Shown here in pieces: positions 5,878 through 60,855 of a stretch of 64,000 nucleotides of DNA (position 1 is the first letter of the stretch; every line of letters starts with the position of its first letter). Both the position numbers and the translations under genes were made by a program. Source of the DNA: Brachypodium distachyon (lineage: Eukaryota; Streptophyta; Magnoliopsida; Poales; Poaceae); the NCBI RefSeq assembly GCF_000005505.3, contig NC_016133.3, forward strand, positions 26,948,508 to 27,012,507, given 5' to 3'. The notes under the pieces are model-generated. The model saw only the letters and a list, made by a program, of their open reading frames with translations, did not search any database and had not been told where the DNA came from.

Positions 5878-6095
5878 TGAATGTCGGGTGCGTACAACGA
5901 GAGCTTTTAGGGTCGATTGGACGCAGCCCCAGAATGTCGGGTGCGTCCAATGACAAGTTTGCGGTCGATTGGATGCAGCCCCCGAGTGTCGGGTGCGTCC
6001 AATGACAAGTTTAATGTCGGGTGTGTGCAATGAAAAGTTTCGGGTCGATTGGACGCAACGCCCGAGTGTCGGGTGCGTCCAATGACAAGTTTTGG
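5878..6095. repeat. NA1 hairpin minisatellite, about 5 units
   Basis: Degenerate units of about 51 bp around the core AGTGTCGGGTGCGTCCAATG. In each full unit TTGGACGCA and TGCGTCCAA flank CCCGA-GTG-TCGGG, giving a two-step inverted repeat. One unit (6010-6055) is truncated. The array lies between the gag-protease stop (6580, minus) and the 3' end of antisense gene 2. NA3 has 12-13 units at the same place. Confidence 0.85.
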
Positions 6096-8553: not shown

Positions 8554-10439
8554 ATGAGGACCAGAGGCGCCGCCACTACGTCTGCCGCCGACCCGGTCCC
8601 GGAGGAGGAGGAGCCCGCAGCAGGTACAGATCCCTACCCTGACTCCACCGTACATGTTCCTTCTGCACAATAACCTTTAACCGTGCGATTACTTTGGCTT
8701 GCAGGCGACACCCAGCCTGCAGGGGGTAGCTCGGCAGCAGAAGCCGGGGCAGGGGGGAACAGATCTCCCCCCGCAAGCATGGCGACCTCACAAGGTACTC
8801 ATCCAGATCCCTTGTGCTCGTCGCCGGGTGCCTCAGCTTCGCTCGAAGTACTTATTCTGCTCTTGTCGCAGGTCCCAATGCGCCCACCACGGGGGCGGAT
8901 GATACGGTGATCAACCTCACCTCTGACGTCGAGGACGTTGAGTTGGGGGACGAGCCGGAGGTGGCTCCCGTGCCAAGCCTCGCCGCCCCAGACACGACGG
9001 TAGGCGCGCCCACCGTCGCTACCGGAGTGGGGCTCGGCGGCACGTCCTCGGCCTTGCAGGCTGGGCGCGTGGGTCCCGCGGCTGCCCAGCAGGAGACGAC
9101 TCCTGCCGGGAGCGCGGCCCCTCCACCAGACCCGCAACCCATGGGTGCAGGTGTGGAGGGAGTCGTGGCAGGGGAGCAGCAGGCAGCTCCCCTGCAAGGG
9201 GGCAATGCTCCACCCGGCCAGACCATGGCAGCAGGGGTCTCGTCGTCGTCCGCCGCTACCTCCAGCCCAGACCTCGGTGTTCTTGCCGGGGCAACTTGGG
9301 ACCCAATCACCTGGCACCCAAGTATCTACGATCAGGGGCACCAGTTCCTCGACGCCATCAAGGAGCAGCAACTGGCGTTCGTCACCTCGTTCAACAAGGT
9401 GGGGGAGCACCACAAGCTCGCGAAGCTTCAGCTGGGCGAAGTGCGGCAGGATGTCGAGAGGGACCGGCAGGAGCTCTCCCGGCTAAGGGAGGAGACCCGG
9501 CTAGCCCGGCAGGCCAGGGATGAGGCCACAACACCAGTTGTCCCTGAGGCGGAGCTCCACCGGCAGCTGGAGGCCCAACGCGCCGAGCATCAGCAAGTAC
9601 TGAACTCGCTGGCCGTGGCGCGGGAGAAGGCCAACAAGGAGCACAAGGACGTGCTGGCAACAGCTCAAGCTCGCCTCAACGAGAAGAGCGAGCTGGTCAG
9701 TGGCTACTCCTCCCAACTCCAGGCGCTGCGCGTGAAGCTAGAGGAGCAGGCCAAGGTTGCGGAGGACGCGGCAGCGGCATCGGCACGGCGAGAGAAGGAG
9801 CTGCGGGAGGAGTTCTGGACCCGGGAGCATGAACTCGCGGGGGAGCTCAATTCCGCCAAGGAAAGGAGCGCCCATCTCGAGTCCGAGCTGACCACCGCCC
9901 AGGGCGAGCTTGTCAAGACTGGCGAGGACAATGTGGGCAAGGCAAAGGAGATCGTGCGGCTTACAGAACTCCTCCGGAAGGCCAAGCTTGCGGTGGCGTT
10001 GTCGCGCAGCAACCACGACAAGCTTGCGGAGCAGCGGCGGAGGGAGACTGAGAAGCTGCTTGAAATTGCCCAGGCCGTACGCGCACTGCTGCCGAGGTTC
10101 GAGCTGCAGGCGGCGAAGGTGGACGGCACGGACGTCAGCACCCTGATCCCATTCTTCTTCGACATGGTGGGGAAGCTCGGGGCGCTGGACGTGTGGATCT
10201 CCAAGTTCTGCGATGGGGAGATAGCGTCGTGCGCCAGGGAGATCGCCAAGACAATCCTCCCCTGAGTGCACTACTACCACCCCGACTTCCCCTTCGAGGC
10301 GCTGCTGGACGCGTGGTCGGACAGTGAGGACGGTCCCTCCCACACCAGGGCAGTGGGCAAGTTCGTCAAAGAAGTGGTGGAGCGGATGCAGAGGAAGCCG
10401 GAGCACCCAGCGGAAGACCCTGGCAACCAGTCGTCATAG
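8554..10439 (+). pseudogene. TAT1 antisense gene, 5'-truncated, two introns intact
   Basis: Three exon pieces: up to 8623, 8705-8794 and 8872-10439, separated by GT-AG introns of 81 nt (8624-8704) and 77 nt (8795-8871). All junctions are in phase 1, and exon 2 is 90 nt, so the frame is kept. The same exon pattern occurs in TAT3. Exon 3 encodes an acidic Ala/Pro region and then a long coiled coil (about 9400-10060). A conserved C-terminus follows: LLPRFELQAAKVDGTDVSTL, then a TGA at 10263-10265 (CGA in the relatives), then HPDFPFEALLDAWSDSED to the real stop TAG 10437-10439. The Transposase_28 exon is deleted. Function unknown. Confidence 0.75.
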
Positions 10440-13500: not shown

Positions 13501-13837
13501 AAGTAGTTTCCCCTCAAAATAAAATATATAAAAATACATTTGCCCTATAAATACCTTTAGGGCTGTAGATCCATTTAAATAAAATACTTTTTCAACTCCA
13601 AATAATTATCCAAAAATTATGGGATGGCTATATGTCCATTAAGCCCCTTTTATAGATAAAACCTATTGGTTTGAAAATCCAAAGCTCATATGGGTGTAAA
13701 CCCTAGGGTTTAAAATGAAATAAAAAATCTTTCCAAAGCCTTTTGAGATTCAAAATTTGAATTCAAATATGCAATTATGGCATGATGCTCATGGAATGCA
13801 ATGCACATGTAAAAGTTTGAAAATTTGGGATGTTACA
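10505..13837 (-). mobile_element. CHR-solo: solo LTR of the RIRE3-like chromovirus
   Basis: A 3,333-bp segment in reverse orientation, from TGTAACATCCC (right edge) to GGGGGATCGCTTCA (left edge), flanked by AATTA at 10500-10504 and 13838-13842. It matches the CHR1 LTRs end to end, including the GC-rich core (12650-13380) and the poly-pyrimidine/AT-rich edges. No internal domain remains, which fits LTR-LTR recombination. It is the only complete LTR of this family in the window and so defines the family's LTR boundaries. I see no gene inside it. Confidence 0.92.
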
Positions 13838-14006
13838 AATTATGGTTTTATTAGCCCATGTAATTATTCGCTACTTTTAGAAATTTCGCTTTCTGGTTCT
13901 ACTTGGTACTTGTTTCTGAAATTGACTTGCGGGGTGGATCTTACTATCCCCGTGTGTTTATGCTTTGTGTTGCCGGGGACTTGCACGCTACTCACTTAAC
14001 CAGATC

Positions 14007-14165: not shown

Positions 14166-14309
14166 GCCACACGCAAGACCCGACCCACACCAACAAGCCA
14201 ACGTTGAGATTAGAAAGCCAGGCGCATAGGATAATGCACTTAGCTGTCTGTTCTCTTATCGAACGTATTGGTTCTGCACTTGGAACGCTTGCTGGAGGGA
14301 TGCGGCAAG

Positions 14310-14479
14310 GGTGCTGTGGCAGTGCACCCATCGGCGCTGAGCACTGATGGCATGCACCCCCACAGCGTCTCTGTGGCAACCCTCGCCTTGGAAACGCCTG
14401 CTGGGGGGGATGCGGCAAGGCCCTTATGGCAGTGCACCCATCGGCGCTGAGCACTGATGGCATGCACCACCATCGCGTC
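14310..14479 (-). repeat. TAT1 hairpin array, two units
   Basis: Two 60-nt hairpin units, 14420-14479 and 14310-14369, spaced 110 bp. In element sense each has outer arms (GACGCTGTGG with CCACAGCACC, 8 of 10 paired; the other unit 6 of 10), a TGCA/TGCA pair and an inner stem CCATC/GATGG. Counterparts with different but still complementary stems are in TAT3 and TAT2. Confidence 0.75.
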
Positions 14480-14573
14480 TCTGCGGCAACCCCGCCTTGG
14501 AGACGCCCGGTGGAGTGATGTGGACTCGCCATCTTCTTAGCTTTGCTTTGAGTTGCTCCGTGGCCACCATGCC

Positions 14574-14581
14574 CTTTTATA
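14574..14581 (-). promoter_or_regulatory. TAT1 internal TATA box upstream of the hairpin array
   Basis: TATAAAAG in element sense (within CCTATAAAAGGGC), about 95 bp before the first hairpin. TAT3 has CCTATAAAAAGGG (46528-46536) and TAT2 a weaker CTATTTAAAG (55354-55363) at corresponding sites. This points to a transcription start inside the element, downstream of pol. Confidence 0.55.
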
Positions 14582-26476: not shown

Positions 26477-26879
26477 TGGGCCGGCAGCCTTGAAGCTCCC
26501 AGCAAGTGCTATCCTCGATCGGTTGCCGGGCTGCGCCCAATCCGACGCGTGGGTCCCCAGGGGAGTCCCTCTGGCACTCGGCCTCGCGGGCCGCATTTAC
26601 GGTTCCACTCCTCCGAGCAAAACGGTCGGGCGCACGATTTTGTGCCTTAACTCCCTTAATCACCAGAGAGTTAAGGCCACCTCGTGCACCCCCCTCTTAA
26701 TCTCTGATTCTTTAGGGCACTTTACTGCCGATCGTGGGGTTGTCCGTTGTAGCCCGCCAGCCCCGATAAACACCCAAGGCTAGCAGCGGGCATTCCCCAT
26801 TGCCCCTTGCACCTGCCATTGCCTCCTCCCAAGCTCTCCGCGCCCCAACTCCAACCAAATCACCTCCCCACCTCCGCCG

Positions 26880-28232
26880 ATGTCTTCCAAGGCCCAGAAC
26901 TGTCCCAAAGGGAGCACCAGCAAAGGGGAAAAGCTCGAGAAGGTCAGCAAGAAGGAGCTGTCGGACCGAGCCCGGAAGGATGAGGAAATGCGGGCTAAGT
27001 TCGCCTTCTTCCCCCCCACCCCCCCACCCCCCGGGTACAATGGCGAGGGGGTAGACAAGCTGGTCTTGGCGCTTGCTACCAAGCACAATGAGTACGGGCC
27101 AATGCGGATTCTCCCCGTCGGCGCGGAGTGTGACCAGCAGTACTTCTGGATCTTCGGGAGATTCATCCTAGCCGGGTTCGTGCCGCCGCACTTTTTTTCC
27201 CTTTCAGCCATCATGGAGACCTACGGGCTCATCATGGCGCAACTTCACCCCACGTCGTTCTTCACATTGGCTGTCTTCCAACACCTTTGTGAAGCGTTCG
27301 TGGGGGTGATGCCATCGGTGGCTCTGTTTCACCACTACTACTACCCAAGGGTGGAGAAGAAGGCTCTCCTGTCCTCGGGGCTGGTGTTCCAGTTCCGCGA
27401 CAGGATCAAGTCGAAGTTCATCGAGCTGGGGAAGAAGAAGATCGAGCACGAGTGGCGCCGTGACTGGTGCTGGGTGCGGACCGATGAGCTCCAGGAGTTC
27501 CACGAGGAGCCCCTCGGGCCTACGAAGGGCTCTGACGACTGGACGCTCCGCGACCAGAAGGAAGAGGAGCTGGCCCCAATCTGTGCCAAGATCAAGGCGC
27601 TCCGTGAGGCTGGGCTCACGGACACGGATGCGGCGCGCCACTTCATCGGGAGGCGCGTGGCTCCCCTGCAGCGGCGCTCACATCCGGCTTGGATGTACAC
27701 CGGGTCCGGCGACCGGACCCGGCTGCAGCGCACAGATCTCCTCCCGGAGGAAGTGCAATACTGGGTGAAGGGCATCACCGGCGAGGGCGAAGCCTACCGG
27801 CTGCCCCCGCTTTGGAGCGCACCCACTCGACGCCGGGATCCCGAACCCGGGATCCCGGGATCTCCCCCTCTGGGACGAGTGGGGGATCATGGAGGACCCC
27901 TCGGCGCAACCCTCCCCCCCGCAGCCCAGGCCCCGCAAGGGCAAGGAGCCGGCTACCGACTCGGGGAAGAGGGGCCAAGGCCAGGCCTCTGCCAGGCCAG
28001 AGGACTCGGACTCCAACGACTCCTCGCTGGGCGTCGGAGGAGACCTCAGCGACGACGGCGATGACGACGATGACGACGCTCCCCCGGCAGCCAGCGGAGT
28101 CGCGCCGGAGGAGGACGACGTCCCCCTGGTGAGGCGGTCTGCGGCGGAGCGGGCGAGCGTGCAGGAGGCCAGCCCGCAGCCTCAGGAGCCTCACGGTGAC
28201 GTGGGAGCTGGGGCCTCCGGCGGCAGCGATGC
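26880..28232 (+). pseudogene. TAT2 antisense gene, Transposase_28 exon, interrupted by CHR1
   Basis: ATG 26880 starts MSSKAQNCPKGSTSKGEKLE, a basic leader. A domain of about 300 residues follows with ILPVGAECDQQYFWIFGRF, GLIMAQLHPTSFFTLAVFQH, VGVMPSVALFHHYYYPR, WRRDWCWVRTDELQEF and FIGRRVAPLQRRSHPAWMYT. This matches the Pfam family Transposase_28 ('putative gypsy type transposon') known from grasses. A 1-nt frame change near 27830-27870 joins it to the WDEWGIMEDPSAQPSPP frame, which continues as an acidic Asp-rich linker to the CHR1 insertion at 28232. After removing CHR1 and one GATGC the frame carries on at 52599. No function is established. Confidence 0.75.
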
Positions 28233-38727: not shown

Positions 38728-39627
38728 TGTCGCACCAGTGGCACCCGGGGTACCACCGTTGCGCGATGCGTGGGTCGCACCACTAAGTTCCCGGGAGGAC
38801 CTCATCCCGGGCGGCAGCTAATGGGCTGCCCGGCAAGCCACCAGCCCGGAAGGGCTAGCTGGCTTCGGGGAATATTCCCGCCTGGCCACCTCTCGGGAGG
38901 TCTCTTGCCAGGAGGAGAGGTTCCCAGGCGCAGGCTCCCGTCGTGAGGGCAGGGCCGAGCAAGCAGAGCAAGGGCGCCACATGGGCGCGCGTTAGGCACC
39001 CGGTGCGCAGTTCCGCCAGGGCGAGGAGTGAGGCGCACGGCGCATTAAATGAGCCGACAGGAGGGGTGCCCGTCTAGTCAGGTAAACAGTGGCTGTCCAA
39101 TCCTACCTGTAAGGCTTTTAGACCCCTAGCAGCGGAGTTGGCGTTCATGCATGCCCACCAGCGCACCGAGGGGGAGTTGCCCTATCTCCCTGCTCGCCAC
39201 TTGTAATTCATGCATGGTGGCACCTATGGTATCCCCTTGTCTATAAAAGGAGGACCCCCGCCAACGGTCAAAAGGGTTCGATCAGCCCACAGTTGGCCTC
39301 TAGCATTAGTAGAGAATAGTAAGGAGTACTTAGCCAAAGGGAGAGAGTACCCGGGAACTCACCCGGCAACCTGTAAACACTTGGTTTTGCGATAATACAA
39401 GCTCAGACAAGCAGGACGTAGGGTTTTACACCTCCGGGTGGCCCGAACCTGGGTAAAAACGTGCGTGCATGTGTTCCTAGCTTGCATGCATCCTGGGTGC
39501 ACCTCTTTGCAGGTTACGTACACCATCGGCCATGCCGGCGATCGCCGGAGCGATCCCCGACGCCCCTGCCGAACCTAAAAGGGGGTGTCCCAGCATGCCA
39601 CCAGTATCGGAGCCCCGTGCAACGACA
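38728..39627 (+). repeat. TAT3 5' LTR with promoter
   Basis: 900 bp, TGTCGCACCAGTGG to CAACGACA. TATA box TATAAAAG at 39242-39249, downstream of CCCCTTGTC. The conserved GGCCCGAACCTGGGTAAA is at about 39440-39457. Confidence 0.9.
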
Positions 39628-39629
39628 TC

Positions 39630-39645
39630 TGGCGCGCCAGGTAGG
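39630..39645 (+). other. TAT3 primer-binding-site region
   Basis: TGGCGCGCCAGGTAGG, 2 nt after the LTR, identical to TAT1. Confidence 0.75.
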
Positions 39646-39735
39646 GGGCGCGAGAGGAGATCTCGCCGGTGACCGCCGGCGGCAGTGTCTGCCTCGACGT
39701 CGGCCTCGTCTTTTCCGCCGACAGAGCTGGCCACC

Positions 39736-41640
39736 ATGCCCCCCAAGCGGGCTAGTGACCCTCGGATCGACCCGCGTGAGGCCCCAGCGGCGCACACGCG
39801 GTCGCACGATGCGCGACCCGCGTCGGGGGCTCAGGAGAACCCTGAGCCCTCACGAGTGCAGCAGTCACAGCTGCCTCCCCTGCCTCCTCGGCCATCAGCC
39901 GACAACCGGCTGAGGGGGCCGGCTGCTCCCAGCGCTGGGGCCAGCCGCGCAAGCAGGCATGGCGCTGCCCGCACCGGCCAGCAAGTCGAGTCACGGGCTG
40001 AGGACACGCAGCGTCAGCTGCGCCATGAGCATACCGCGTCGCGAGCAACGCCCGGGGGCTCGCACCCCGCACACCCGGATACGTCCGAGGGTAGAGCGAA
40101 AAAGCAGCCGCTCGGGAAACCGGCTGCCTCCCGCACAAACCCCAGCGGAAGCCATCATCGCCGCGCGGGTCATGGTGTGGTATGAACCACAATAGGGCAC
40201 GCCGGGGCACGAGACGTGGGGCGAAGAGTTGGATGCGCTCTTCGCGCTCGCTGCCCAACAGCCGCAAGGTGAGGACGTTCCGTCAGGCTTCGGCCGCGGG
40301 CAGAACCTGGAGCGCAGAGGCGCTCCCCGTGCCTCACGTCAAGGGGAGAAACCTCCCCCGCAGGGAGGCCAGGGAGACGGAGACCCGGAGGGGTCCTCGA
40401 ACTTGTCACCCATGGTCACACGGGGTGACGCGCGCGGCAACTTGAATGCCCACCAGCAAGAAGATCTACGCCAACGCTTAGAGCTCCGGTGCCGGTGCGA
40501 GGTAGGGCGCCAACGCCCGCAGGAGCAGGAAGATGCTCCCATGGGCCTCGAGGATGGCTGCACCACGTTCACACGCGAGCTGCGCCGGGTGACATGGCCC
40601 CGCAAGTTCCGAGTGCCAGCACTCGGCACATACGACGGGACCATGAATCCCAAGGATTTCCTCCTGACCTACATGTTGGGGATGTATGCCATCGGCGCCG
40701 ACGACAAGGTCAAGGCCAACTAGTTCCCAGTAGTCCTGAAAGGATCAGTGAGAACCTGGCTGCTCCACCTGCCCGCCGGGTCCATTGCCACGTGGGCGGA
40801 TCTGCACGAGCAGTTTGTGAGCGTGTTCCAAGGCGGCTACAAGCGCCCGGGAACCATGGCGGAACTGCACACCATTATGTAGAAGCCGGGAGAGACGTTG
40901 CGGAGCTTCGTCAACCGCTTCTCCAACCTCTCCAACTCTGTCACGGAGGCGGAGGCAGCTGCCATCGTCAACACCTTCGCCATCAACGTCCGCGACCCCA
41001 AGATGCGCGAGAAGCTGAGCACGCATCGGATCCGGACGACACAAGATCTGTACGCCCTGGCGCACAAGTGCGCCATGGCCGAGGAAGGGCGCTTAGCGCC
41101 CGAGCTAGCAGCCAAGGCTGCCGCGAGCCCTGCGCAGTGGGAAACAGGTTCTCGCTGCGGATTCAAGGGTTGTTGCCGCGAGGCCTGCGAAGAAGGCCTC
41201 GTCGGGTGGCGGGCCTGGTGGCAAGCAGGGCGACGCGCCCCGCTGCCCCATACACAACAACTCTACCCAAGACGCGCAGGACTGCCGCATCCTGCAGGGG
41301 ATCAAGCAGCGGCACGAGCAGCGCCATGAGGAGCGCCGTGCTGCTGACGCCTGTTTCATCTGCGGCGACATCGGGCATCTCTCCCGAGATTGCCCGAACG
41401 ACCCCAGAGCAGGGCCGAGACCTGCCGGCTGCGGCGTCGGCACGGACGAACCCTAGGGGGGACGCGGCCAGGCTCGCGCGGGCAGGGAGCGCCCTCCCCG
41501 CGGACGCGACAGGGCTCGCGCTGACGAACAGCACGAGTCCGATTGCACTGGCGGCGACGAGCCAGGCTTCCAGGAGCCTGGTGGCGTCGCCTGCATCCAT
41601 GGGGGAGCCTATGCTCTCCCATCCATGCCGCGGTAAAGCG
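39736..41640 (+). pseudogene. TAT3 gag
   Basis: ATG 39736 gives MPPKRASDPRIDPREAP. The frame shifts by one before about 40130 and continues with AEAIIAARVMVWYEP, a TAG (40193-40195), ELDALFALAAQQPQGE, FTRELRRVTWPRKFRV and LGTYDGTMNPKDFLLTY. A TAG (40721-40723) stands where TAT1 has Trp. Then come TWLLHLPAGSIATW, FQGGYKRPGTM, a TAG (40880-40882, CAG in TAT1), LRSFVNRFSNLSNS and NTFAINVRDPKMREKLSTHR. After a second shift near 41140-41170 the zinc knuckle CFICGDIGHLSRDC is at 41352-41393. Confidence 0.8.
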
Positions 41641-41642
41641 CC

Positions 41643-42436
41643 TCACCCGTGACGGGTGCGCGCTGTTGCCGTACGCGGAGCTGTAGCAGCCGCTGATGTG
41701 GTCGCACGTGCCGAGCACCTTCAGCGCCGACAATCACCCAGCACGGCAGTTGGGTTCTGGGGTCATACCCTTCGTGGTCTCACCAATCATCAGCAACATG
41801 ACGGTGACCAAGGTTCTGGGGGACAACGGAGCGGGGCTAAACCTCCTGTCCGCCAGGTTGGTGGAGAAACTCCAGCTACTGGTGGAACAGCTGACGCCCA
41901 CCGAGCCATTACGGGGAGTAAACCCCGGGATCGTGCGCCCCCTGGGGCGCATCACGCTGCCGGTGACCTTCGGGTCCCGGGAAGCGTTTCGGACCGAGCA
42001 CATAGTGTTCGACGTGGCGCACACCTAGTTGCCCTACAACGGGATCCTTGGTCGGCATGCGCTGATCAAATTCATGGTGGCTACGCATTGCGCCTACGGC
42101 GTAATGAAAATGCCGTCCGTGTATGGAGTTCTCTCCATCAGGTGCGACCTCAAGGACGCGGCCTGGTGCGTGGGCGAGGTTGTCAGGGCTGCCGCTGCAG
42201 CCGACACCGATGACGAAGACGTCGCTTTGGACGAAGGCTCGCCGGGCGACGGCCCGGCAACGAAGAAAGCCCGCACTGCCCTGCAAGAGCTTGCCGAGGG
42301 AAGTGCAGGCTCGAGCTCGTGCCCCGGCAAGGGCCAGAAGCTCCGGGAGGAGGCTACCAAGGTGAAGAAGCTGCCCCTCCAGGCCGGCAACAAGGAACGC
42401 ACCGTCACCGTCGGTGCGAACCTTACTGCCGAATAG
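41643..42436 (+). pseudogene. TAT3 protease
   Basis: VKRLTRDGCALLPYAEL, TAG (41684-41686), then SHVPSTFSADNHPARQLGSG, VTKVLGDNGAGLNLLSARL with DNG at the active-site position (41822), FRTEHIVFDVAHT, TAG (42026-42028), LPYNGILGRHALIKFM and a Lys-rich linker to the TAG at 42434-42436. That last stop is at the same codon as in TAT1. In frame with the downstream RT. Confidence 0.8.
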
Positions 42437-44197
42437 GAAAGCGCCCTCATCACCTTCCTCCGGGAGAACGCCGACATGTTCGCTTGGGAGCCTTCGGATC
42501 TTCCCGGAGTCCCCAGGGAGGTGATTGAGCATCGACTTGTGGTGCGCCCGGACGCCCGCCCCGTCAAGCAGAAGATCCGCTGGCATGTGCAGGAGCGGAA
42601 GGATTTCATCAAGCAAGAAGTGGACAAGCTCAAAGCTGCCGGGGCTATCAAGGAAGTTCTGTACCCCACCTGGTTAGCTAACCCTGTAGTAGTACCCAAG
42701 GCGGGGAATAAACTTCGCATGTGTGTAGATTTTACTGATCTGAACCGTGCGTGTCCCAAGGATCCTTTCCCTGTACCCCGCATTGATCAAATAGTCGATT
42801 CCACTGCTGGTTGCGATCTGCTGAGATTTTTGCATGCTTTTTCCGGCTACCATCAAATCAAGATGGCAGTCGAAGATGAGGAGAAAACAGCGTTCATCAC
42901 CCCGGTTGGCTGCTACTGTTACACGTGCATGCCTTTCGGGTTGAAGAACGCGAGCTCAACATTCCAACGTGCGCTGCACGAGTGTTTGGGACCCCAGCTA
43001 GGCCGAAATGTGGAGGCCTACATGGACGACATCGTCATCAAGTCAAAGCGTGGGGACTTGCTGATTGATGACCTGCGGGAGACGTTTGACAACCTCCGCA
43101 GGATCAAACTCAAGCTGAACCCTGAGAAGCGCACCTTTGGTGTGGACTCGGGCCAGCTTCTGGGTTTCTTGGTTTCTCACAGAGGGATACAAGCCAACCC
43201 GCAGAAGATAGAGGCTACCGAGAAGATGGAGGCTCCCTGCAAGGTGAAAGATGTCCAACGCCTCAACGGTTGTGTTGCCGCGTTGGGCCACTTCATCTCA
43301 AGGCTGGGCGAACGCGCCCTGCCTTTCTTCAAGGTAATGAAGAAGAAGAGTCCGGTTGACTGGACCCCCGAGGCCAAAGCGGCGTTCTGGGAACTCAAGC
43401 AGTACCTGAGGTCGCCGCCCGTCCTCGTCGCCCCCAAGCCGAGCGAGCCGCTACTAATCTACCAGAGAGGGAGGAAGACGTTCCGGGGACTGAGGCTGCT
43501 GGGCAGGGGGCGACCCCCAGCAACTGCCTCGGGCCCGGGGACCACCCACGAGCCAGCAACCCCAGCACCGCGCAAGCGGCTAGTGCAGCACCCGGTGTAC
43601 TTCGTCAGCACGGTGCTGCGCGACGCCCGTACGAGGTACCCGCAAGTACAGAAGCTCCTCTTGGGGATTTTCCTTGCGCCCCGCAAGCCGCGCCACTACT
43701 TCCAGGCGCACTGCGTCACGGTGGTGTCGGGATTCTGCCTCAAGCGGGCTTTCACCAACCGCGAAGCCACTGGGAGGGTGGCCGAGTGGAGGATGGAGCT
43801 GTCAGAGTTTGACCTCCACTTCGCCAACTCCAAGAGCATCAAGAGTGCGGCCCTGGCGGACTTTGTCGCAGAGTGGACGTCGACGAGCATGGGAGAGGAG
43901 GAGCCGGAGACCATCCTGCCCGGCAGGCTGGACGAAGGCCACTGGGTCCTCTACTTCGACGGCGCGTTCAGTCTCCAAGGAGCTGGTGCCAGGGTCGTCA
44001 TCGAGTCACCAACAGGGGACCAACTGAGGTTCGCTGTCCAACTCGATTTCCCGAACTCCACCAACAACACAGCGGAGTATGAGGGTTTGCTCGCCGGGTT
44101 ACGGGCAGCGATCGCCCTCGACATCAAGCGCCTGATTGTTCGCGGGGACTCCCAGCTCGTAATCAACTAGGTTAACAAGGACTACGACTGCCCGTAG
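42437..44197 (+). pseudogene. TAT3 reverse transcriptase and dual RNase H
   Basis: One frame open from 42437 to 44167. RT motifs: MFAWEPSDLPGVP, KLRMCVDFTDLNRACPKD, FSGYHQIKMAVED, MPFGLKNASSTFQRAL and YMDD at 43019-43030. A tether and degenerate Ty3-type RNase H follow (LPFFKVMKKKSPVDWTPEA, HPVYFVSTVLRDARTRYP, WRMELSEFDLHFANSKS). The second RNase H has LYFDGAFSLQGAGARVVIE, NNTAEYEGLLAGLRAA and IVRGDSQLVIN. The stops at 44168-44170 and 44195-44197 are TAG where TAT1 has CAG. The double RNase H is a Tat-lineage hallmark. Confidence 0.88.
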
Positions 44198-45718
44198 ATG
44201 GCACCATACGTGGAGGAAGTCCGCAAGCTAGAACGCAAGTTCAAGGGTTTGCGGTTCGAACACGTCAAGCAGAAGGACAACTTCGCGGCTGACGAGCTGT
44301 CCAAGATGGCAGCAGAACGCCGGGAACCCCCGGCGGCGGTGTTCTGCCAGAAGCAAGCGGCTCCTTCAGTCGCCCCCAAGCTGGTTGCCGGAGACGCCCC
44401 TCCGGCAACCGAAGGAAACCCCACGACAGCGAGGGTCCATGCCACTGACATAGTAGCATGCGTTGGCAGGGAGACCCCTCTCTGGGCGGTGGAAATCGCC
44501 CGCTACTTGAAGGGGGAGGCCCTCCCGGAAGATGGCGTTGCTGCGGAGCGTGTGGCGCGGCAAGCCAAAATGTACACTGTGGTGGATGGAAACCTCTACC
44601 GCAGGCGTGCGAATGGGGTCAAGCTCATCTGTGTGCCGCAAGACGAAGGGCGCGCGCTGTTGGAGGAGATACATCAAGGCACATGCTCCCACCATGTGGC
44701 CTCCCGGGCTCTAGCCGGCAAGGCGTTTCGGCACGGTTTTTACTGGCCCACAGCCCTGGCCGACGCGGATCAGCTCGTGAAGATGTGCGAAGCGTGCCAG
44801 TTCCACTCGAAGAAAAGCAACCAGCCGGCGTAGGCCTTGCATGTCATCCCGGCCTCGTGGCCGTTCGCGGTCTGGGGGTGGGACATCGTCGGCAAGTTGC
44901 CGAGGGTGGTCGGCGGCTACGAGTATTTCTTCGTGGCCATCGACAAGTTCTCCAAGTGGGTGGAAGTGGAACCAGTGCGGAAGGTGACCGCCCAGGCGGC
45001 CATCAAGTTTTTCTAGAATATTGTGTGCCGGTTTGGTGTGCCTAACGGCATCATCACCAACAATGGCACGCAATTCACGAGCGCGATGTTCCAAGCCTAC
45101 TGCGAGGGCATGGGCACCAAGTTGCAGTTCGCGTCCGTTGCTCACCCGAGGAGTAACGGGCAGGCGGAGCGAGCTAACGCAGAAGTGCTGCACGGGCTCA
45201 AGACGAGAACCTTTGACAAGATCAAAGGCCACGGGAAACACTAGGTTGAAGAACTCCAGCCCGTGCTGTGGTCAATCAGGACCACACCTAGTCGGGCAAC
45301 GGGCGAAACCCCTTTCGCCCTTGTCTATGGGGCAGAAGCGGTATTGCCCCTCGAACTCAAGCACGGATCTCCCTGCGTACGCGCGTACGGCAACACCAGC
45401 CAACACGAGCAAAGGGTTGATGATCTAAACTTCATCGAAGAGCTTCGATGCCGGGCTGTTGTGCGAGCGACGCGCTACCATCAGGAACTCCGTCGTTACC
45501 ACGACAGGCGAGTCCATCCCCGGGGCCTCGAGAACGGAGACCTTGTCCTGCGCCGGATACAAGGAACGAAGGCCGGGAACATGTTGACTTCGAGATGGGA
45601 GGGCCCCTTCCGGGTAGTGTAGGTGACCAGACCGGGGGCTGTCCGGCTGGAAACCGAAGATGGCTTGCCGGTGCAAAATAGTTGGAATATTGAGCACCTG
45701 CGCAAGTTCTACCCGTGA
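44198..45718 (+). pseudogene. TAT3 integrase
   Basis: Same frame as RT. Zinc region: HQGTCSHHVASRALAGKAF and CEACQFHSKKSNQPA. TAGs lie at 44831, 45014, 45242 and 45620. Core: WDIVGKLPRVVGGYE (first Asp), IITNNGTQFTSAMFQAY, where the second catalytic Asp of TAT1 (IITDNGTQF) is Asn, and HPRSNGQAERANAEVLHG with the Glu. The C-terminal part has RRIQGTKAGNMLTSRWEGPF and NSWNIEHLRKFYP. Real stop is TGA 45716-45718. Confidence 0.85.
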
Positions 45719-46527
45719 AGCGGCGGAGCCCGACCCTTAGGTGATGCTGCTGATGCATGCCTCTCGAACTAGTGTAGCCGGGAAGCCCCCATGTGTAAAC
45801 CACTGGTTATTGTGAATAAAGATAAGTATTTCTTTCCTGAATTTTAAGATTGCCTCGTTTATTTGTGTGTTCCTCCTTCTTCTATCTCTTGTTTTGGGTG
45901 CACGGAAGTGTCTTTCCATACAGTTGTGAGCAGGGGGCTGCTGGAGTCTCGAAAACACAAACCCGTTACCGGATCGCTTCGGCACGGGACATGCAGTCGC
46001 CGGGCCTCCCGCGACGTGCATCACGAGACATGCGGTTGCCGGGCTTCCCGCAACGTGCATCACAGGACGTGTAGTTGTCGGGCTCCCCGCAACGTGCACC
46101 ACGCAGTTGCTGCGTCTGGGAAATAAAATGCTCACAACCAAGTTTGGCATCGACCCTTCCGCGCCCGGGGGCTGGGAGGCAGGAGATTACCCGTGTTGCT
46201 TATTGTTTTTCGTGGATTTCGAAATTTTTTGCAGCACCTTAGACCTGGTAAGAATCTAATCTGCAGGGAAAAGTGGAATCTTGCACACTGTAATACCCGT
46301 GGGCCGCCCACGGGTCACGGCATGCAGCAGCGCCTTGTGGTCCGGAGCGACCGCACCACAAGGGACTCGCCGAACACCGAGGCTCTTGTCCAAGGAGGGG
46401 GCCGCCACGTGTGCCACAACGACTTGGCATGCAGGGTGGCGAAGACTGTACCGCACTTCAAGGGGTGGGGCGCCACGGGTGATGAGCTGATCCATCACGC
46501 ACGGTGGCAAAGCCCTCCCCCCGCGCC
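45719..46527. other. TAT3 spacer between integrase and internal promoter
   Basis: No supported gene. A short degenerate tandem repeat lies at about 45985-46095 (GGACATGCAGTCGCCGGGC-type units of 35-40 bp, three copies). Otherwise co-linear with the same interval of TAT1 and TAT2. Confidence 0.55.
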
Positions 46528-46536
46528 TATAAAAAG
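46528..46536 (+). promoter_or_regulatory. TAT3 internal TATA box
   Basis: TATAAAAAG inside CGCCTATAAAAAGGGTG, in element sense, 72 bp upstream of the first hairpin. Matches the TAT1 box at 14574-14581 in sequence and position. Confidence 0.6.
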
Positions 46537-46599
46537 GGTGCCTCGGCCATGGAACGGCTCAGAGCTCAACCAGGCAAAGGGAGGGAGTGGAGCCGCAGA

Positions 46600-46987
46600 G
46601 GCGCGATGGGGGTGCATCCCCTCAGTGCTCGGCGCCGACGGGTGCATGGCCGTTGCGCCCTTGCCGCCTCACTCCACCGAGTCCGCTCTGAGGGGCGTCG
46701 CAGAGACACGATGGTAATGCATGCCATCAGCATTCAGCGCTGACGGGTGCACTGCCGCCGTGTCCTTGCCACGTCTCCTCTAGCGAGCAGCTCCGGGGTG
46801 AGGGCTGCCGCGGAGGCAGTGTCGTGGTGCATTCCATCGGCGCACAACGCCGACGGGTGCACTACTGCAGTGCCCCTGCCGCATCCCTCCAGAGGGTATC
46901 TCCACAAGGAGCGAGGGTTGCTGCGGAGACACTATGGGGGTGCATGCCATCCGTGCTCAGCGCCGACGGGTGCACTGCCATAGTGTC
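46600..46987 (+). repeat. TAT3 hairpin array, four 60-nt units
   Basis: Units 46600-46659, 46705-46764, 46815-46874 and 46928-46987 (spacing 105, 110, 113). Outer arms: GGCGCGATGG/CCGTTGCGCC, GACACGATGG/CCGCCGTGTC, GGCAGTGTCG/CTGCAGTGCC and GACACTATGG/CCATAGTGTC. These pair 10, 9, 8 and 10 of 10 with G-U allowed, although their sequences differ. A TGCA/TGCA pair and an inner stem (CCATC with GACGG) lie inside. Downstream to about 47340 follows a GC-rich stretch without clear units. Confidence 0.8.
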
Positions 46988-47424
46988 CCCGCCGCACCCC
47001 TCCAGGGCGCGCCTCCAGAGGCGAGGGTCGTCGCGAGGATGCTGTGATGGCGCCGGTGCCAGCGTTCGCCGTTCACTCTGGCCCACCACCGCGTCCCTGC
47101 TACGTCCCTCAAGCAGCTTTTTCCCCAAGCAGCAAGGGCTGCTACGGGGATGCCATGGCGTCCTCGCCACCCGCATTCGCCGATGGCGGCGAGGAAGCCA
47201 CGACGTCCCCGCCACACCCCTCGGGACAGGTTCCCCCGGAAGCAAGGGGTTCTTTTCAAAGGCGAGGGCTATTGTGGAGGCACGGTGGGAGCATCGTTCA
47301 AACGTTCCGAGCACGAGACTGAACGAGAAGCTAAGTGCTTGAACCTAAATGACAAATCCTCTAAGAACTGAACGTAGTTGAACGCTGCTTCGCCAAGTAT
47401 GGCCCCGGAACCTACGCGTGGCCG

Positions 47425-47582
47425 GAGTGTTAGGAAGACGCTTGCGGGGGGAGTGCGCTCCCCGTGTGGCTCCCGGGTCCATCCCCGGAGGGCATGGCAT
47501 GGAGTAGTTACCCCGCAAGGGGAGTGGCTCGCCGCTACCGCTTGACCCCAGGTCGGCACTGCGGGTCCGTCCCGGGTCCCTA
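47425..47582 (+). other. TAT3 conserved GC-rich block
   Basis: Reverse complement of the block at 14007-14165 and 54828-54990, including GCGGGTCCGTCCCGGGTCCC at its end. Lies 263 bp beyond the stop of the antisense gene. 47583-47844 shows nothing else recognisable. Confidence 0.6.
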
Positions 47583-47844
47583 GTCTGGTCAAGGGTGAGG
47601 CGTGCGAGCCCTCGGCAACACAAGGCACAACACGCAAAGGCTAAGGGAGCCGCCCCGCGAGGTAGCCCCGGGAACAAGGAACAAGAATTAAGCGAATTAA
47701 AAAGCTTGATTAACTAAGTACTGAATGATTACATGGACTAATCAAAATGTAATTGTTTAGACAGCGCAAAGCACTACACTTGCAGGACAAGAACGAAAGA
47801 AGATAAACAGGAAAGCAGCAGGGACCGGCAAGAGGCTGTGGCAA

Positions 47845-50800
47845 CTAGTTGCCGGCTTCTTCCGTCGGAGGCTCCGGGGACGGCTCGGGGTCTGGCTTCC
47901 GCTGCATCCGCTCGACCACCTCGTCGACAAACCCGCACACCGCTTTGGTGTGGGTGGGCTTGTCCTCGCTGTCCGACCAAGCGTCCAGCAGGGACTCGAA
48001 GGGAAACTCTAGGTCCCGGAGGTGTATCCTAGGGAGGATCGTCCCGGCAACCTCCCGGGCGCAGTTGGCAACCTTGTTGGTGCCGTATTGGGCGATCCAG
48101 ACGTCGAGCACCCCAAGCTTCCTCACCAGGTCGGAGAAGAAGGGGATCAACATTGAGACATCCGTGCCGTCCACCGCCACGGCCTGCAACTCGAACCGGG
48201 GTAGCAAATCGCGCAATGCCTCGGCGATCTTGAGCAGCTTCTTGGTCTCCAGCTACCGCTGCCCGATCAGCGTGCCATGGTGGAGCCGGGCGTCATGCGT
48301 GGCCTTCTTGGCCTTGCGGAGGTTGCCTCCAGCGCCACAAGCTCTGCGGTCTTGACCGCGATGTCGTTGCCGGCCTTGGCAAGCTCCTCCCGGACGGTGG
48401 CCAGTTCGTTCTCAAGCTTGGCCGCCCTATCCTTGGCAGAGCCGAGCTGGATCTCATGATGTGCCACTGACTCCACCGCACTCTTGGTAGCCTTGACCTG
48501 CACCTCCAGCTTGACATGCATGCCCTGGATCTTGCCGCGGTAGTTGGCGATCAGGTCGCTCTTCTCGTCAAGCCAGGCCTGGGCTGCCGCGAGCACCCCG
48601 GCATGCTCCTTCTTGGTTTCCTCGAGGGTCGGCGCCAGCAAGTCCAGCGCCCCCTGAAGCTCGGCGCGCTAAGCCTCCAGTCGCCAGTAGAGCTCAGCCT
48701 CCGGGACGACCGGTTCCTCGGCGTCCTCCAGGGCTTCCCGGGCAAGACGCGCCTCCTCTCTGGCGAGGTGCGTCTCCTCGCGCAGCCGGGAGACCTCTTG
48801 CCGCTCCTTCTCCACGGCTTCCCTCACCTCGCCAAGTTGGCTCTTGGCGATGGCGTGGTGTTCCCTCACCTCGTTGAAAGAGGTGACGAAGGCCAGTTGC
48901 TGGTCTTTGACGGCGTCCAGGAACCGGTGTCCTCGCTCGAAGACGCTCGGATCCCAGGTGATGGGATTCCAAGCTACCCTAGCAAGGGTGCCAAGGTCGG
49001 TGTTGAGGGAGGCGGCCGATGATGACGAAGCTCCCGCCGCCATGGTAGAGCTGTGCGGGGGGTCGTCAGGTTGTTCCGGGGTGTCCTGTCGTCTTTCCCC
49101 GGCAACCTCCCCTTCACCCGCGCCCGGGGACTCTGGGGCTGGAGAAGCCATTGTGCCCCCGGCAGGGGCCGTCCCCTGCTGGGCGGCGGGTGAATCCGCG
49201 CCAGCTGCATCTGCGGCGGCGGGCGCGTCGCCGGGTGCCGCCCCCGCGGCGGCGGTGGTCACTGCTGCCGCAATGGCCGGCCCGGCAGGGCTTGGTGCGG
49301 GAGCCACTGCCGGCTCCTCCGGCGCCCCCGTGATCTCGACATATAGGTCAAGGTCAACCACGATAGCACCTGCTCCCGGTGCGGGTGCGCTTGGGCCTGC
49401 CACAACAAGAAGTGTGAGGATCGACGAGCGAAAGAGTAGCCAGAAGCGAGAGGAAGGGGATCAGGGAGGTCACCTTGCAAGGCCGTTGGACTTGTGGGGG
49501 GATCTTCCCCCACCTCATCCGTCCCGTCGGGAGCCTCCGAGAGGCTTGCCATGGGTGAAGTGCCACCTGCTGAAAGAGAAGGTACGGTTGTGTGATTAAC
49601 TGACAATTGAAAACGCAGCAGAAGAGGGTGGAAGGAGCCGTACCTGTCGCCGGTGCCACCTCCGTTGGGGCTAGGTTCTCGGCGGGTGCGATGACGGCGC
49701 CGCTAGCCCCAGTGCCAGTCGGGTCAACGGCGCTGCCGTCGTCCGCGCGCGCCCTCTTACTTGGTGTGGCGGGCGGGGAGTCGCCCCTCCCCCTCTTGCT
49801 GGAGCTCGCCGACGAGTCGGTCCTCGGGGGGTTGCGTCGGAGCGCGAAGCCCTGGAAGACCCCCCGAGCGGGCGGGGCCATGGGTGCCCGTGGGGTTGCC
49901 GCGGGAACTAATGACGAAGCTGCCACGGCGTCGGGGGCTGCCCCCAGTGTGGATGCCGCCGCGGCCCCGGCAGCTGCTGCTGAGGCAGCCGTCGCCGGGC
50001 CGCTGGCGAGCGTCGCTGGGACGGTCGCTGCTGCGGTCCCGGCGACCCCCATGGGTGTGGTCGCCGCTGAAGTACCGACGGACGCCCCTAAGGCAGCTGC
50101 CGCTTCAGAGCTGGTACCCGCCGCTGGGGCGGATGTCGTCGCCGGGGAAGACGCTGTCGCAGCCGCCGTAGAGGTAGCCGCAGGCGCTGCGTATGCCCTT
50201 GATCTCCGGACGATCAGGGGCACGTCATCACTGTGCTCATCGTCGTCGTCCATAGGGACGACTTCCTAGGATGCCGCAGGCTGGCCCGCCTCGTCATCCA
50301 AAGACTGGAGGGAGGGCCAGCTGATATCCGACTCGCCCTCGCTCCCCTCAATCACCTACTTCCCGCGAGGTGCCAGCCAGGGAGTGCGCGGGGCCCGAGT
50401 GGGGGTATCATCCATCAATCCCCACTCGTTGCAGGGCGGGAAGGCGGTGACGATGTCTTTGAACCCCGCAACACCGGCGTGGAGGGAGATGACCCCCAGC
50501 GGGAACACGGTTGCGGGGAGGTTTTCGCCGGAGATCCCCCTCACCCACACCTGGAGGGATTCCAAGTCCACGCCTTCGTGGCGGAGGCGTGTCCTGTCCT
50601 CGGCACCCGTGTACATCCATGCGGGCCGGGAACGCAGTTGGATCAGCGCGATGCGCCGGGTGATGAAGGTACGCACCACGTCCACGTCGGTGAGCCCCGC
50701 CAGCCGTAGATCCTTGATCTTCTCCACGATGGGGAGGAGATCGGCATCATGGTGGTACCGGTCCCGCCAGCTGGAGTGGGTTTGCGGCAACTCGGTGGGC

Positions 50801-51381
50801 GGGAGGATGAACTCCTCGGGGCCTTCTGCGCGGACCCAGCACCAGTCCCCGCGCCACTCCTTCTCGATCTTCTTCTCTCACCGGACGATGAACTCAGATT
50901 TCATCCGATCGCGGGCGCGGAACACCACCCCCGACGACATCGCGTTCGCGTTATCGATCCGGGGGTAGAAGTAATGGCGGAAGAGCGCCACCGACGGCAT
51001 CACCCCCACGAACACCTCGTAGAGGAATTGGAAGGTGGCGAGGAGGAAGAGCGATGTGGGGTGAAGCTGAGCCACCCGCAGCTGGTACGACTCCATCAAC
51101 GCATGGAGAAACAGCGAGAACGGCGGCACCAGCCCAGTGAGGAGGAAGTGCCTGAACACCCGGAAGTCATTGTTCTGGTGCTCGGCGCCCGCGGGGAGGA
51201 TGTGGGTCTCCCCGTGCTCGTTGAACCGGGAAGCCACGGCGTGCTGGATCTTGGCGAGCGTCTCGCCGTTGTAGCCCGGCCGGTAGAAGGCTTGTGAGGC
51301 CCTCATCTCCTGCTTCTTCCGATGTTTGTCGGCGGCTGCCTTGCCGGCCGCCTCGCTCCTGCCGGTGGTGGGAGACGCCAT
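47845..51381 (-). pseudogene. TAT3 antisense gene, three exons
   Basis: ATG at 51381 (MASPTTGRSEAAGKAAADK). Exon 1 (51381-49644) holds a Transposase_28 domain (RHFLLTGLVPPFSLFLHAL, SYQLRVAQLHPTSLFLLATF, VFVGVMPSVALFRHYFYPR, FITRRIALIQLRSRPAWMYT) and an Ala-rich linker with a basic GRGDSPPATPSKRARADD patch. Introns 49570-49643 and 49397-49473 are GT-AG. Exons 1, 2 and 3 are in three different frames that join correctly in phase 1 only if both introns are removed. Exon 3 is a coiled coil ending in LLPRFELQAVAVDGTDVSML and LRDLEFPFESLLDAWSDSED. Stops: TGA 50878; TAG 50356, 50266, 48669 and about 48253; a frameshift near 48320. Product of unknown function, probably nuclear. Confidence 0.8.
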
Positions 51382-51491
51382 GGGGAACGCAGGCAGGAGT
51401 TCGCAAGAACACTTGGGCGCAGCATGCGAAGGAGGTGGAAGACGAAGGCTGTGGGGAGCAAAGTGTTTTCCCCTTCCAGCAGCAGTAAAAA

Positions 51492-51499
51492 CTTTATAG
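51492..51499 (-). promoter_or_regulatory. TATA box of the TAT3 antisense gene
   Basis: CTATAAAG on the minus strand, about 110 bp upstream of the ATG at 51381, a normal spacing for a plant promoter with a short leader. It is independent of the LTR. Confidence 0.55.
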
Positions 51500-51711
51500 C
51501 ATCCGGCAGTTTGGTAACGGCCGGTTCCGCACCCTACGGGTGCGCAGGGATAATTCCTAATCAAAAGGAGTAATGCGGGCGGTGGCCTTACCTTCCCTGT
51601 TTAAGGGGGAGGTATGGCGGAAATCACGTGCCCACCACTCTGTCTGTAACGGCAGGATGCGTGGGGCAGCGAAGAGACGCGGGCCCGAGGCGAGTTAGGA
51701 CCCACGCGTCA

Positions 51712-51863
51712 GGCACCCGGTGCGCAGTTCCGCCAGGGCGAGGAGTGAGGCGCCCGGCGCATTAAATGAGCCGACAGGAGGGGAGTTGCCCGTCTAGTCA
51801 GGTAAACAGTGGCTGTCCAATCCTACCTGTAGGGCTTTTAGACCCCTAGCAGCGGAGTTGGCG
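51712..51863 (+). repeat. TAT3 3' LTR remnant
   Basis: 152 bp matching 38994-39144 of the 5' LTR, from GGCACCCGGTGCGCAG to AGCGGAGTTGGCG. The LTR start and polypurine tract are deleted on the left and the rest of the LTR on the right. 51500-51711 is internal sequence with no gene. Confidence 0.85.
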
Positions 51864-51904
51864 TGTCCCCGGTTAAACTAAGTACTTAGCCGTGTCCCCG
51901 GTTA
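51862..51904. other. Deletion scar with 14-bp templated filler
   Basis: CGTGTCCCCGGTTA occurs at 51862-51875 and again at 51891-51904. The second copy is native CHR1 LTR; the first sits exactly at the TAT3/CHR1 breakpoint. Confidence 0.7.
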
Positions 51905-54585: not shown

Positions 54586-55116
54586 TTGCCTGTTTTTTTT
54601 TAATATTTTCCTACAAGTGGCGCATGGCGCCTTCGAACTTTTTATGTTAGCTTTCCCTTATCATCACAAGTGTTATTTGTTAACTCGTTTGCTCAAGCTT
54701 CAATATATCCAATGCTACTTTTACTTGCTTCTTTGTCTAAGACTAGCTTGCCGGGGAGGGGCTATGTCCTTCTCGTGCCTTAGCCTTGAGTATCCGGGGA
54801 CTCGCCAACTACATGCTTGGCCAAACTAGGGACCCGGGACGGACCCGCGGTGCCAACCTAGGACCAAACAGCAGCGGCTAGTCACTCCGCCTGCGAGTTA
54901 CCTACCCCAGCGCGCACGCCTCCGGGGCGGACCCGCGAGCCACGTGTGCGGGGGCGTCCTCACCCCACAAGCGTCCTTCCTACGCTCCAGCAACACGGGG
55001 ACCGAGTTTACCTCACCAAACCAGCGTTACTAAAGGAAGAGCTAAGAACCCAAAACAAAGTACTTAGCTTTTCGCTCTCTTTGGTCTTCTAGCATCTTGT
55101 TGAGAGCCGTGGCAAG
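54586..55116. other. TAT2 spacer with conserved GC-rich block (54828-54990)
   Basis: Begins with a T-rich stretch after the antisense stop and the CTACAAGTGGCGCATGGCGC box, which is also present after the TAT1 stop (10472-10490). The block from AGGGACCCGGGACGGACCC at 54828 aligns with TAT1 and TAT3. No frame is conserved. Confidence 0.6.
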
Positions 55117-55295
55117 GACGCCGTGGCAGTGCACCCTCCAGCGGCATGCGCGGAGGCATGCACCCCCACAGCGTCTTCGCGATGCCTCTCGCCCACTGCA
55201 CAACCATTTCTGGTGTCGTTCCATAAGAGATGTGGCAGGGCCGCGATGGTGGAAACACCCTCAGCGACAAGCGCAGAGCGATCCACCACCATCGC
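55117..55295 (-). repeat. TAT2 hairpin array, two units
   Basis: Unit 55117-55175: arms GACGCTGTGG/CCACGGCGTC pair at all ten positions (one U-G). The inner stem is CCTCC/GGAGG instead of CCATC/GATGG, a compensatory change. Unit 55243-55295: perfect GCGATGGTGG/CCACCATCGC arms with a diverged loop. Confidence 0.75.
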
Positions 55296-55353
55296 CTCTC
55301 TACGAAATCTCTTGCTTTCTTGCCCGTTGCCGGTGTTGCATTTGCCCCGGTAT

Positions 55354-55363
55354 CTTTAAATAG
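55354..55363 (-). promoter_or_regulatory. TAT2 internal TATA-like box
   Basis: CTATTTAAAG in element sense, about 60 bp before the first hairpin. Weaker than in TAT1 and TAT3 but at the same place. 55364-56015 contains no gene I can support. Confidence 0.4.
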
Positions 55364-60204: not shown

Positions 60205-60855
60205 GAATGTCGGGTGCGTACATCGAGAGGTTTTAGAGTCCACTGAATGCAGCCTCCACGCGTCGGTTGCGCCCAATGACAAGTTTGGTCGATTGGACGA
60301 AGCCCCCGAGTGTCGGGTGGGTCCAATGACAAGTTTTGGGTCGATTGGACGCAGCCCCCGAGTGTCGGGCGCGTCCAATGACAAGTTTTGGGTCGATTGG
60401 ATGCAGCCCCCGAGTGTCGGGTGCGTCCAATGACAAGTTTTGGGTCGATTGGACGCAGCCCCGAGTGTCGCGTGCGTCCAATGACAAGTTTTGGGTCGAT
60501 TGGACGCAGCCCCGAGTGTCGCGTGCGTCCAATGACAAGTTTTGGGTCGATTGGATTGAGCCCCCGAGTGTCGGGTGCGTCCAACGACAACTTTGGGTCG
60601 ATTGGATGCAGCCCCCGAGTGTCGGGTGCGTCCAATGACAAGTTTGGGTCAATTGGACGCAGCCCCCGAGTGTCGGGTGTGTCCAATTACAAGTTTTGGG
60701 TCGATTGGACATAGCCCCCGAGTGTCGGGTCCGTCCAATTACAAGTTCTGGGTCGATTGGACACAGCCCCTAAGTGTCGGGTGCGTCCAATGACAAGTTT
60801 GGGTCGATTGGACGCAGCCCCGAGTGTCGGGTGCGTCCAATGACAGGTTTGGTAT
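60205..60855. repeat. NA3 hairpin minisatellite, 12-13 units
   Basis: Units of 49-52 bp with the consensus core GACAAGTTTTGGGTCGATTG followed by GACGCAGCCCCCGAGTGTCG and GGTGCGTCCAAT. The inverted repeat TTGGACGCA/TGCGTCCAA with CCCGA/TCGGG recurs. The first two units are diverged and the central ones nearly identical. Long open frames on both strands through the array are a by-product of its periodicity. Confidence 0.9.

Follow-up and report, generated by a model that had tools for sequence, protein, structure and literature searches.

Among plant long terminal repeat (LTR) retrotransposons, elements of the Retand lineage (Tat clade, Ty3/gypsy) have been reported with tandem repeats beside pol and with antisense TRP28 genes, the origin and function of the repeats being given as unknown (PMC11963269). 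Tat/Ogre elements likewise carry hypervariable tandem repeats downstream of gag-pol, in their 3′ untranslated regions, and these repeats seed satellite DNA (PMC7004042). Here we analyse a 64,000-nt window of the 271-Mb genome of Brachypodium distachyon (C4:26948508-27012507; coordinates below are positions in this window), which holds members of three related families of this kind: TAT3 on the plus strand, and TAT1 and TAT2 on the minus strand. Downstream of the integrase end of pol, each carries an array of imperfect ~90-nt hairpins preceded by a TATA motif in element sense, and the arms of these hairpins have changed together along the deep branches of the unit tree.

TAT3, as far as we could delimit it, occupies 38988..51864 (+), with LTR remnants at both ends (38988-39144 and 51705-51864) that are 96% identical; its 3′ LTR appears truncated at 51872, because similarity to other elements begins there. 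Similarity in pol, which includes a reverse transcriptase domain (PF00078), extends to ~46020, and the pol ends of the three families are 73-83% alike. From there to the 3′ LTR remnant at 51705 runs a region of ~5.7 kb, within the 2.9-6.6 kb described for Retand elements (PMC11963269), and between pol and the 3′ LTR lies an antisense TRP28 (PF04195) open reading frame (ORF). With its long region between pol and the 3′ LTR, its antisense TRP28 ORF and its repeats beside pol, TAT3 is consistent in anatomy with the Retand lineage as PMC11963269 describes it. TAT1 seems to carry another element inside it (~10526-13838), and TAT2 is only partial within the window. A 211-amino-acid pol query found no relatives in the viral contigs searched.

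Unlike the Retand repeats as that survey describes them, the ~90-nt units here keep one compensated fold in three families behind a TATA motif; the words ‘hairpin’, ‘TATA’ and ‘Brachypodium’ are absent from the main text of PMC11963269. The array rule given there asks for at least 3 tandem copies by Tandem Repeats Finder, which sees 1.8 copies at 46800-47005 (TAT3), 2.2 copies at 14279-14520 (TAT1) and none in TAT2. By that rule the arrays here would go uncounted, and such a survey could therefore miss them. The Tat/Ogre repeats vary in monomer sequence and length, whereas the units here keep their fold across families, and the main text of PMC7004042 does not contain the word ‘hairpin’. In the parts of the literature searched, no covarying hairpin array in plant LTR elements is described, and a literature search with six stem words of 12-13 nt gave, among the matches listed, only papers unrelated by title. 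As far as the literature searched extends, the finding that Retand-type repeats can form a covarying hairpin family coupled to a sense TATA motif is new.

Each unit is one long imperfect hairpin in which position i pairs with position 89-i, and the units, which lie between pol and the antisense coding region, follow each other at a spacing of ~110 nt. We built a covariance model from 40 units, among them the TAT3 and TAT2 units of the window. Its sites in the window number 10, each seen on both strands and all within the three arrays; in the rest of the window it gives no match below E = 0.5, the sole other row having E = 0.77. Six of the sites are in TAT3 (+), at 46585..46674 (unit 1, E 4e-15), 46690..46779 (unit 2), 46800..46889 (unit 3), 46913..47002 (unit 4, E 6e-19), 47023..47110 (unit 5) and 47134..47222 (unit 6), the last two diverged; by eye, 47261..47300 (+) is a probable remnant of a seventh unit, comprising its 5′ arm only. 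TAT1 (-) has two units, at 14405..14494 (u1 of the family) and 14295..14384 (u2), and TAT2 (-) has two, at 55225..55313 (unit 1) and 55102..55190 (unit 2). An extra first unit, u0, is present in 27 of 28 aligned TAT1-family copies and missing from the TAT1 copy of the window. The sequence-only reading that led to this analysis had described one to four 60-nt hairpins per element. The arms and TATA boxes it quoted lie where it placed them and its structured repeats downstream of integrase are real, but the 60 nt are the inner part of a longer unit and the TAT3 array, with its six units, spans 46585-47222.

The array folds well beyond expectation from composition: the segment 46600-47000, covering TAT3 units 1-4, has z = -8.05 against 100 dinucleotide shuffles, and eight unit pieces of 60-70 nt have z = -2.4 to -6.2. 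Among the modal pairs of the 11 unit types that we distinguish, positions 15-32 form a helix with few departures. Pair 9.80 is never a standard pair and is C.C in 8 types, pair 14.75 is A.C in 9 of the 11 types and G.C in 2, and pair 5.84 is unpaired in 7 of the 10 types with letters there. A GGTGCAT / GTGCAC core is conserved in most unit types. This stem plan, 15 positions up to the A.C mismatch followed by a long helix, is presumably similar in size to plant microRNA precursors; a scan of the window with Rfam 15 at the gathering score gave no match, so no known RNA or MIRNA family was recognized.

For comparative analysis we searched the genome with each array, scoring the best 40 places of 949, 824 and 396 first-look candidates, and took 30 loci per family, chosen by array similarity. 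The alignment retains 88 of the 90 loci, two TAT1 copies (including that of the window) having been dropped for gaps, and comprises 322 units of the 11 types, 318 of them distinct. Because these loci had been selected by array similarity, seven further copies were selected by their integrase ends, four and three from two integrase searches with the best 40 places scored in each. Units are present in all 7, although not all of these are whole: one copy (L091) starts within a unit, another (L094) has two units, and in a third (L096) the second unit scores low.

Several lines of evidence indicate that the two arms have changed together, as the sequence-only reading had proposed. First, Watson-Crick pairs make up 65% of the modal pairs on register i+j=89, compared with 19-36% at 18 other registers (80-98), and at least two kinds of Watson-Crick pair occur at 21 positions, compared with 1-9 at the other registers. 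Second, among 40 chosen units, 121 cells have changed on both sides and still pair, a count that falls to 11-35 when the arms are slid by 1-3 columns and is reached in 0 of 500 shuffles. Third, in a tree-based test of our own in the manner of R-scape, covering 3741 column pairs, the top three pairs, (20,69), (18,71) and (6,83), all lie on register 89. Their E values over all pairs are 0.01, 0.47 and 1.03, respectively, and 0.01, 0.19 and 1.69 without units 5 and 6; among the 30 stem pairs only, again without units 5 and 6, they are 0.0001, 0.0015 and 0.014. Power to detect covariation is limited, because there are only 11 unit types.

Fourth, the compensated changes are concentrated in ancestry. 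If pairing is needed only in the active lineage, changes shared by many copies should keep pairs and private ones should not. Counting changes from Watson-Crick pairs and taking as deep any branch with at least 8 leaves, we found compensated double changes in 25 of 66 cases on deep branches, 5 of 89 on branches with 2-7 leaves and 5 of 446 on terminal branches (Fisher p = 5e-20, deep versus terminal); at control registers 87 and 91, only 2 of 58 changes on deep branches were compensated (p = 2e-6). Without units 5-6 the figures are 16 of 42, 2 of 51 and 3 of 317, respectively, and 4 of 91 on deep branches at four control registers. The 25 events are spread over 15 positions and 17 branches, and the direction of the few beside the midpoint root is uncertain. 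Terminal changes are rarely compensated; inserted copies therefore decay like neutral DNA, whereas pairing was maintained in the ancestral lineages. Neutral-rate decay of the stems had been named in advance as a sign against a structured array, and such decay is indeed seen in inserted copies, but not in the deep lineages.

The same distribution could in principle arise with no function at all. In that case the array would be a tandemly duplicated inverted repeat in which one arm is overwritten by the other through template switching in the course of reverse transcription, which mimics compensation. Such copying would likewise be restricted to transposition, hence to deep branches, and tandem repeats are common in this region, where they are hypothesized to stem from illegitimate recombination or abnormal strand transfer (PMC7004042). 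Moreover, 6 of the 25 compensated changes are adjacent to another on their branch (positions 27-30 and 21-22), as copied tracts or misaligned diverged units could produce. The other 19 are isolated, however, and arm copying should erase the mismatches at 9.80 (11 of 11 types) and 14.75 (A.C in 9 of 11). It is because mismatches persist between compensated pairs that simple arm copying is argued against. Homogenization is also uneven: u1 of TAT1 and unit 1 of TAT3 are 84% alike and TAT3 units 5 and 6 are only 47-56% like units 1-4, although u1 and u2 of TAT1 are 86% alike. We regard an origin without function as improbable.

The second component of the arrays is the TATA motif. In TAT3 it is TATAAAA at 46528..46534 (+), 57 nt before the first unit called by the model; in TAT1 the sequence has TATAAAA at 14575..14581 (-); and in TAT2 the motif is TATA-like, TATTTAA at 55356..55362 (-), with all seven columns invariant in those sampled copies that have sequence at this point. 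The 150 nt upstream of the first unit contain the exact motif in 24 of 30 copies of TAT3, in 22 of 25 of TAT1 (counting copies whose first unit we could place) and in 29 of 30 of TAT2, compared with 6 of 540, 4 of 510 and 1 of 510 background windows of the same loci, respectively, and its spacing to the first unit is 44-69 nt. Among the integrase-chosen copies, it is found in 6 of the 6 (of 7) whose stretch reaches far enough, 49-64 nt upstream of the first unit present. Diversity at the core is 0.040 against 0.204 at other A/T sites in TAT3 (P = 0.001) and 0.000 against 0.137 in TAT2 (0 of 10,000 draws). The earlier claim of a TATA box in element sense before every array stands for all three families, with significant conservation of the motif in two of the three. 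A separate 39-nt tandem repeat, in three copies at 45983-46103, lies between the TAT3 integrase end and this TATA region; it is gapped in the aligned TAT1 and TAT2 stretches of the window.

We tentatively read the putative internal promoter and its array of 2-6 hairpins, situated between integrase and the antisense TRP28 gene, as a structured noncoding-RNA module; to this reading we give somewhat less than an even chance. In this model, a TATA-type core promoter in element sense would precede the imperfect ~90-nt hairpins, and selection would have kept hairpin pairing while the lineage transposed, with pairing then free to decay in each inserted copy. RNA polymerase II (Pol II) starts ~30 nt after a TATA box in plants; a start at that distance would fall just before the first hairpin, yielding a short, hairpin-rich sense RNA. 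The separate transcript, its strand and its function are what we infer from this arrangement. Our guess for its function is that the hairpin RNA might engage the host Dicer/Argonaute machinery as substrate or decoy and might thereby shield the genomic RNA or modulate the convergent antisense gene. The roles suggested in the sequence-only reading, namely a source of small RNAs, a signal for packaging or dimerisation, or a regulator of the antisense gene, are likewise guesses.

The chief rival is that the array acts in cis, as a structured element of the genomic RNA serving nuclear export, stability or packaging, with the TATA motif incidental or otherwise used. It would account for the place of the array, which follows pol in each of the three window copies and in all 7 copies fetched by integrase, for pairing preserved only during transposition of the lineage and for a slight wobble lean to the sense strand (below). 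A TATA motif at near-fixed spacing in all three families is not expected from it, and the number of units varies between families (2, 3 and 6). We consider a cis-acting element unlikely, if more plausible than the other alternatives. Constitutive transport elements and RNA transport elements (CTE/RTE) are structured RNAs that lie between the last gene and the 3′ LTR and, to our knowledge, lack an internal promoter. We liken those described for simple retroviruses and intracisternal A-type particles (PMC1363727) to the array by place only.

A number of observations weigh against a noncoding-RNA module with its own sense transcript. In the all-pairs covariation test, E is below 0.05 for one column pair only, and the stem pairs have a median rank of 945 of 3741, with many ranking low. 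Conservation of the TATA core in TAT1 lacks significance (P = 0.11). The proposal that the hairpin RNA serves as a silencing decoy or Dicer substrate remains a guess by analogy, and 21-mers of the TAT3 stem find as their best site in the rest of TAT3 one with 4.5 mismatches, in a crude comparison without shuffled control. The active strand is also poorly marked. Mutation alone should give equal numbers of G.U and A.C departures, and selection on a sense RNA should give more G.U. Within families, counting variants present in at least 4 copies, G.U:A.C is 23:22, 3:4 and 2:2 over pairs predicted from both strands and 40:30, 19:9 and 3:9 over the union of both strand predictions. Folding energy shows no consistent strand preference beyond shuffles, with near-equal folds on both strands, and if the other strand is the active one, the mismatch at 14.75 (A.C) turns into a wobble pair. 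Terminal branches have G.U:A.C at 164:144 and deep branches at 21:11 (p = 0.11); without units 5-6 the deep count is 16:6 (p = 0.05), which, set against 115:110 on terminal branches, gives Fisher p = 0.07. A sign-flip test over positions 0-34 gives p = 0.06, and 0.003 only after post hoc removal of four mismatch-prone positions. These counts amount to a weak lean to the sense strand, without proof.

Near-equal folding of both strands bears on two further explanations. One is that the array is a bidirectional transcription stop between the convergent sense gag-pol and antisense TRP28 genes. Its position between the end of pol and the 3′ end of the antisense coding region would suit such a role, as would the strand symmetry of its folds; a promoter-like motif before it is unexpected, and Pol II 3′ ends are not generally known to need such hairpins. 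The comparison comes from ambisense viral segments, whose intergenic hairpin region is said to act in this way (PMC3283609), and we consider such a role very unlikely for the arrays here. The other is that the inverted repeats act as DNA, as sites for a dimeric protein such as the element’s own TRP28. TRP28 is predicted to bind DNA (PMC11963269), and the strong symmetry, the conserved core in most unit types and the lack of a clear strand preference are all compatible with protein sites. A specific site would, however, conserve letters, and here many arm letters change in pairs; nor would it be expected to keep 90 nt of symmetry along with persisting mismatches. The chance of this explanation seems to us small.

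A coding function for the array was considered and rejected. Over 640 bp in TAT3, no single frame is free of stops in more than 5 of 30 copies (range 0-5), and unit spacing is no constant multiple of three. Some short sense frames are mostly open in TAT2 (27 of 30 copies) and TAT1 (21 of 30), spanning only ~230-250 bp.

The likeness between units bears on the age of the array. Unit u1 of TAT1 is 84% like unit 1 of TAT3, as given above; u0 of TAT1 is nearest to unit 1 of TAT2 (69%), and the latter is nearly as near to u1 of TAT1 and unit 1 of TAT3 (68%). Judged from these sequences, some of the array seems older than the divergence of the three families, and the 86% likeness of u1 and u2 of TAT1 makes some within-element exchange or duplication likely. 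Between TAT3 and TAT1, the array is 73-81% conserved, its flanking blocks are 77% and 73% conserved, and the antisense coding region is 66% conserved. Within-family diversity has a trough at the array in all three families, among copies that had been chosen by array similarity. Slower evolution of the array is not claimed, since this sampling favours a trough; of the two TAT3 units that the search query did not include, unit 5 shows slightly reduced diversity and unit 6 the same diversity as the flank.

The flanking blocks are conserved between families. Upstream of the TATA motif, 46065..46302 (+) is 77% identical to TAT1 14959-14718, and 46128-46315 is 71% alike to TAT2 55687-55498. Downstream of the array, 47415..47754 (+) is 73% identical to TAT1 14173-13838, and 47415-47626 is 75% alike to TAT2 54997-54783. 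Parts of the downstream block are nearly invariant, and its 215 aligned columns contain only one gap, of 3 nt. Coding was suggested by that gap and by an antisense frame that stays open in 24 of 28 copies of TAT3, but we rejected it: the frame is open in at most 4 of 28 TAT1 and at most 3 of 26 TAT2 copies, and there is no codon-phase skew between families over 47415-47626. The block is probably noncoding and could be part of the putative array transcript or the 3′ region of the antisense gene. In addition, a short word, AGCTAAGT, follows the array in all three window copies (47310-47345, 14250-14215 and 55080-55045), in surroundings that are otherwise unlike.

Beyond the downstream block lies the TAT3 antisense coding region, convergent with pol (47891..49320, -), made up of antisense ORFs and 66% identical to TAT1 10402-8948; the ORF with the Transposase_28 domain (TRP28, PF04195; E 2.8e-14) is at 50878..51600 (-). 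In TAT1, the one antisense ORF tried (8730-10265) has no Pfam match. The antisense gene of the maize element Grande has a promoter of its own, from which it is transcribed (PMC7264820). A further Transposase_28 (PF04195) ORF occurs in the window at 26784-28064 (+; E 3.6e-14), and 27108-27724 within it has 67% DNA likeness to the TAT3 antisense region.

Elsewhere in the window, a second hairpin tandem of unlike sequence has 52-nt units, in 12.5 copies at 60208-60850 and also at 5879-6102, which contain the inverted repeat ATTGGACGCA ... TGCGTCCAAT. It sits on the minus strand in two stretches, ~87% identical, that belong to another repeat family, downstream of a protease-like ORF (so judged by eye, and without Pfam match); no TATA motif was seen by eye just upstream.

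The nearest analogy for how a noncoding-RNA module might work is the 8S RNA of plant pararetroviruses, a structured noncoding RNA apart from the genomic RNA that derives from the leader and has been proposed as a decoy source of small interfering RNAs (PMC4462095); we claim no relationship. As described there, the pararetrovirus leader is 5′ and its RNA comes from the 35S start site, whereas the array here is near the 3′ end with a TATA motif of its own. The most specific form of the proposal would be an internally promoted hairpin RNA that acts in trans on silencing, is older than the split of the three families and is paired with TRP28 as a two-part accessory region. This we think distinctly unlikely.

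The repeats that Tat/Retand elements carry between pol and the 3′ LTR have been discussed as raw material for satellites (PMC11963269, PMC7004042). The families analysed here give evidence that at least one such repeat set is a structure kept by compensated change and tied to a promoter-like motif, so that the question of what these repeats do can be put to cap and small-RNA data that already exist. Should a separate RNA prove to be made, an accessory noncoding RNA would be among the features of plant LTR retrotransposons, with a logic comparable to that of viral ones.
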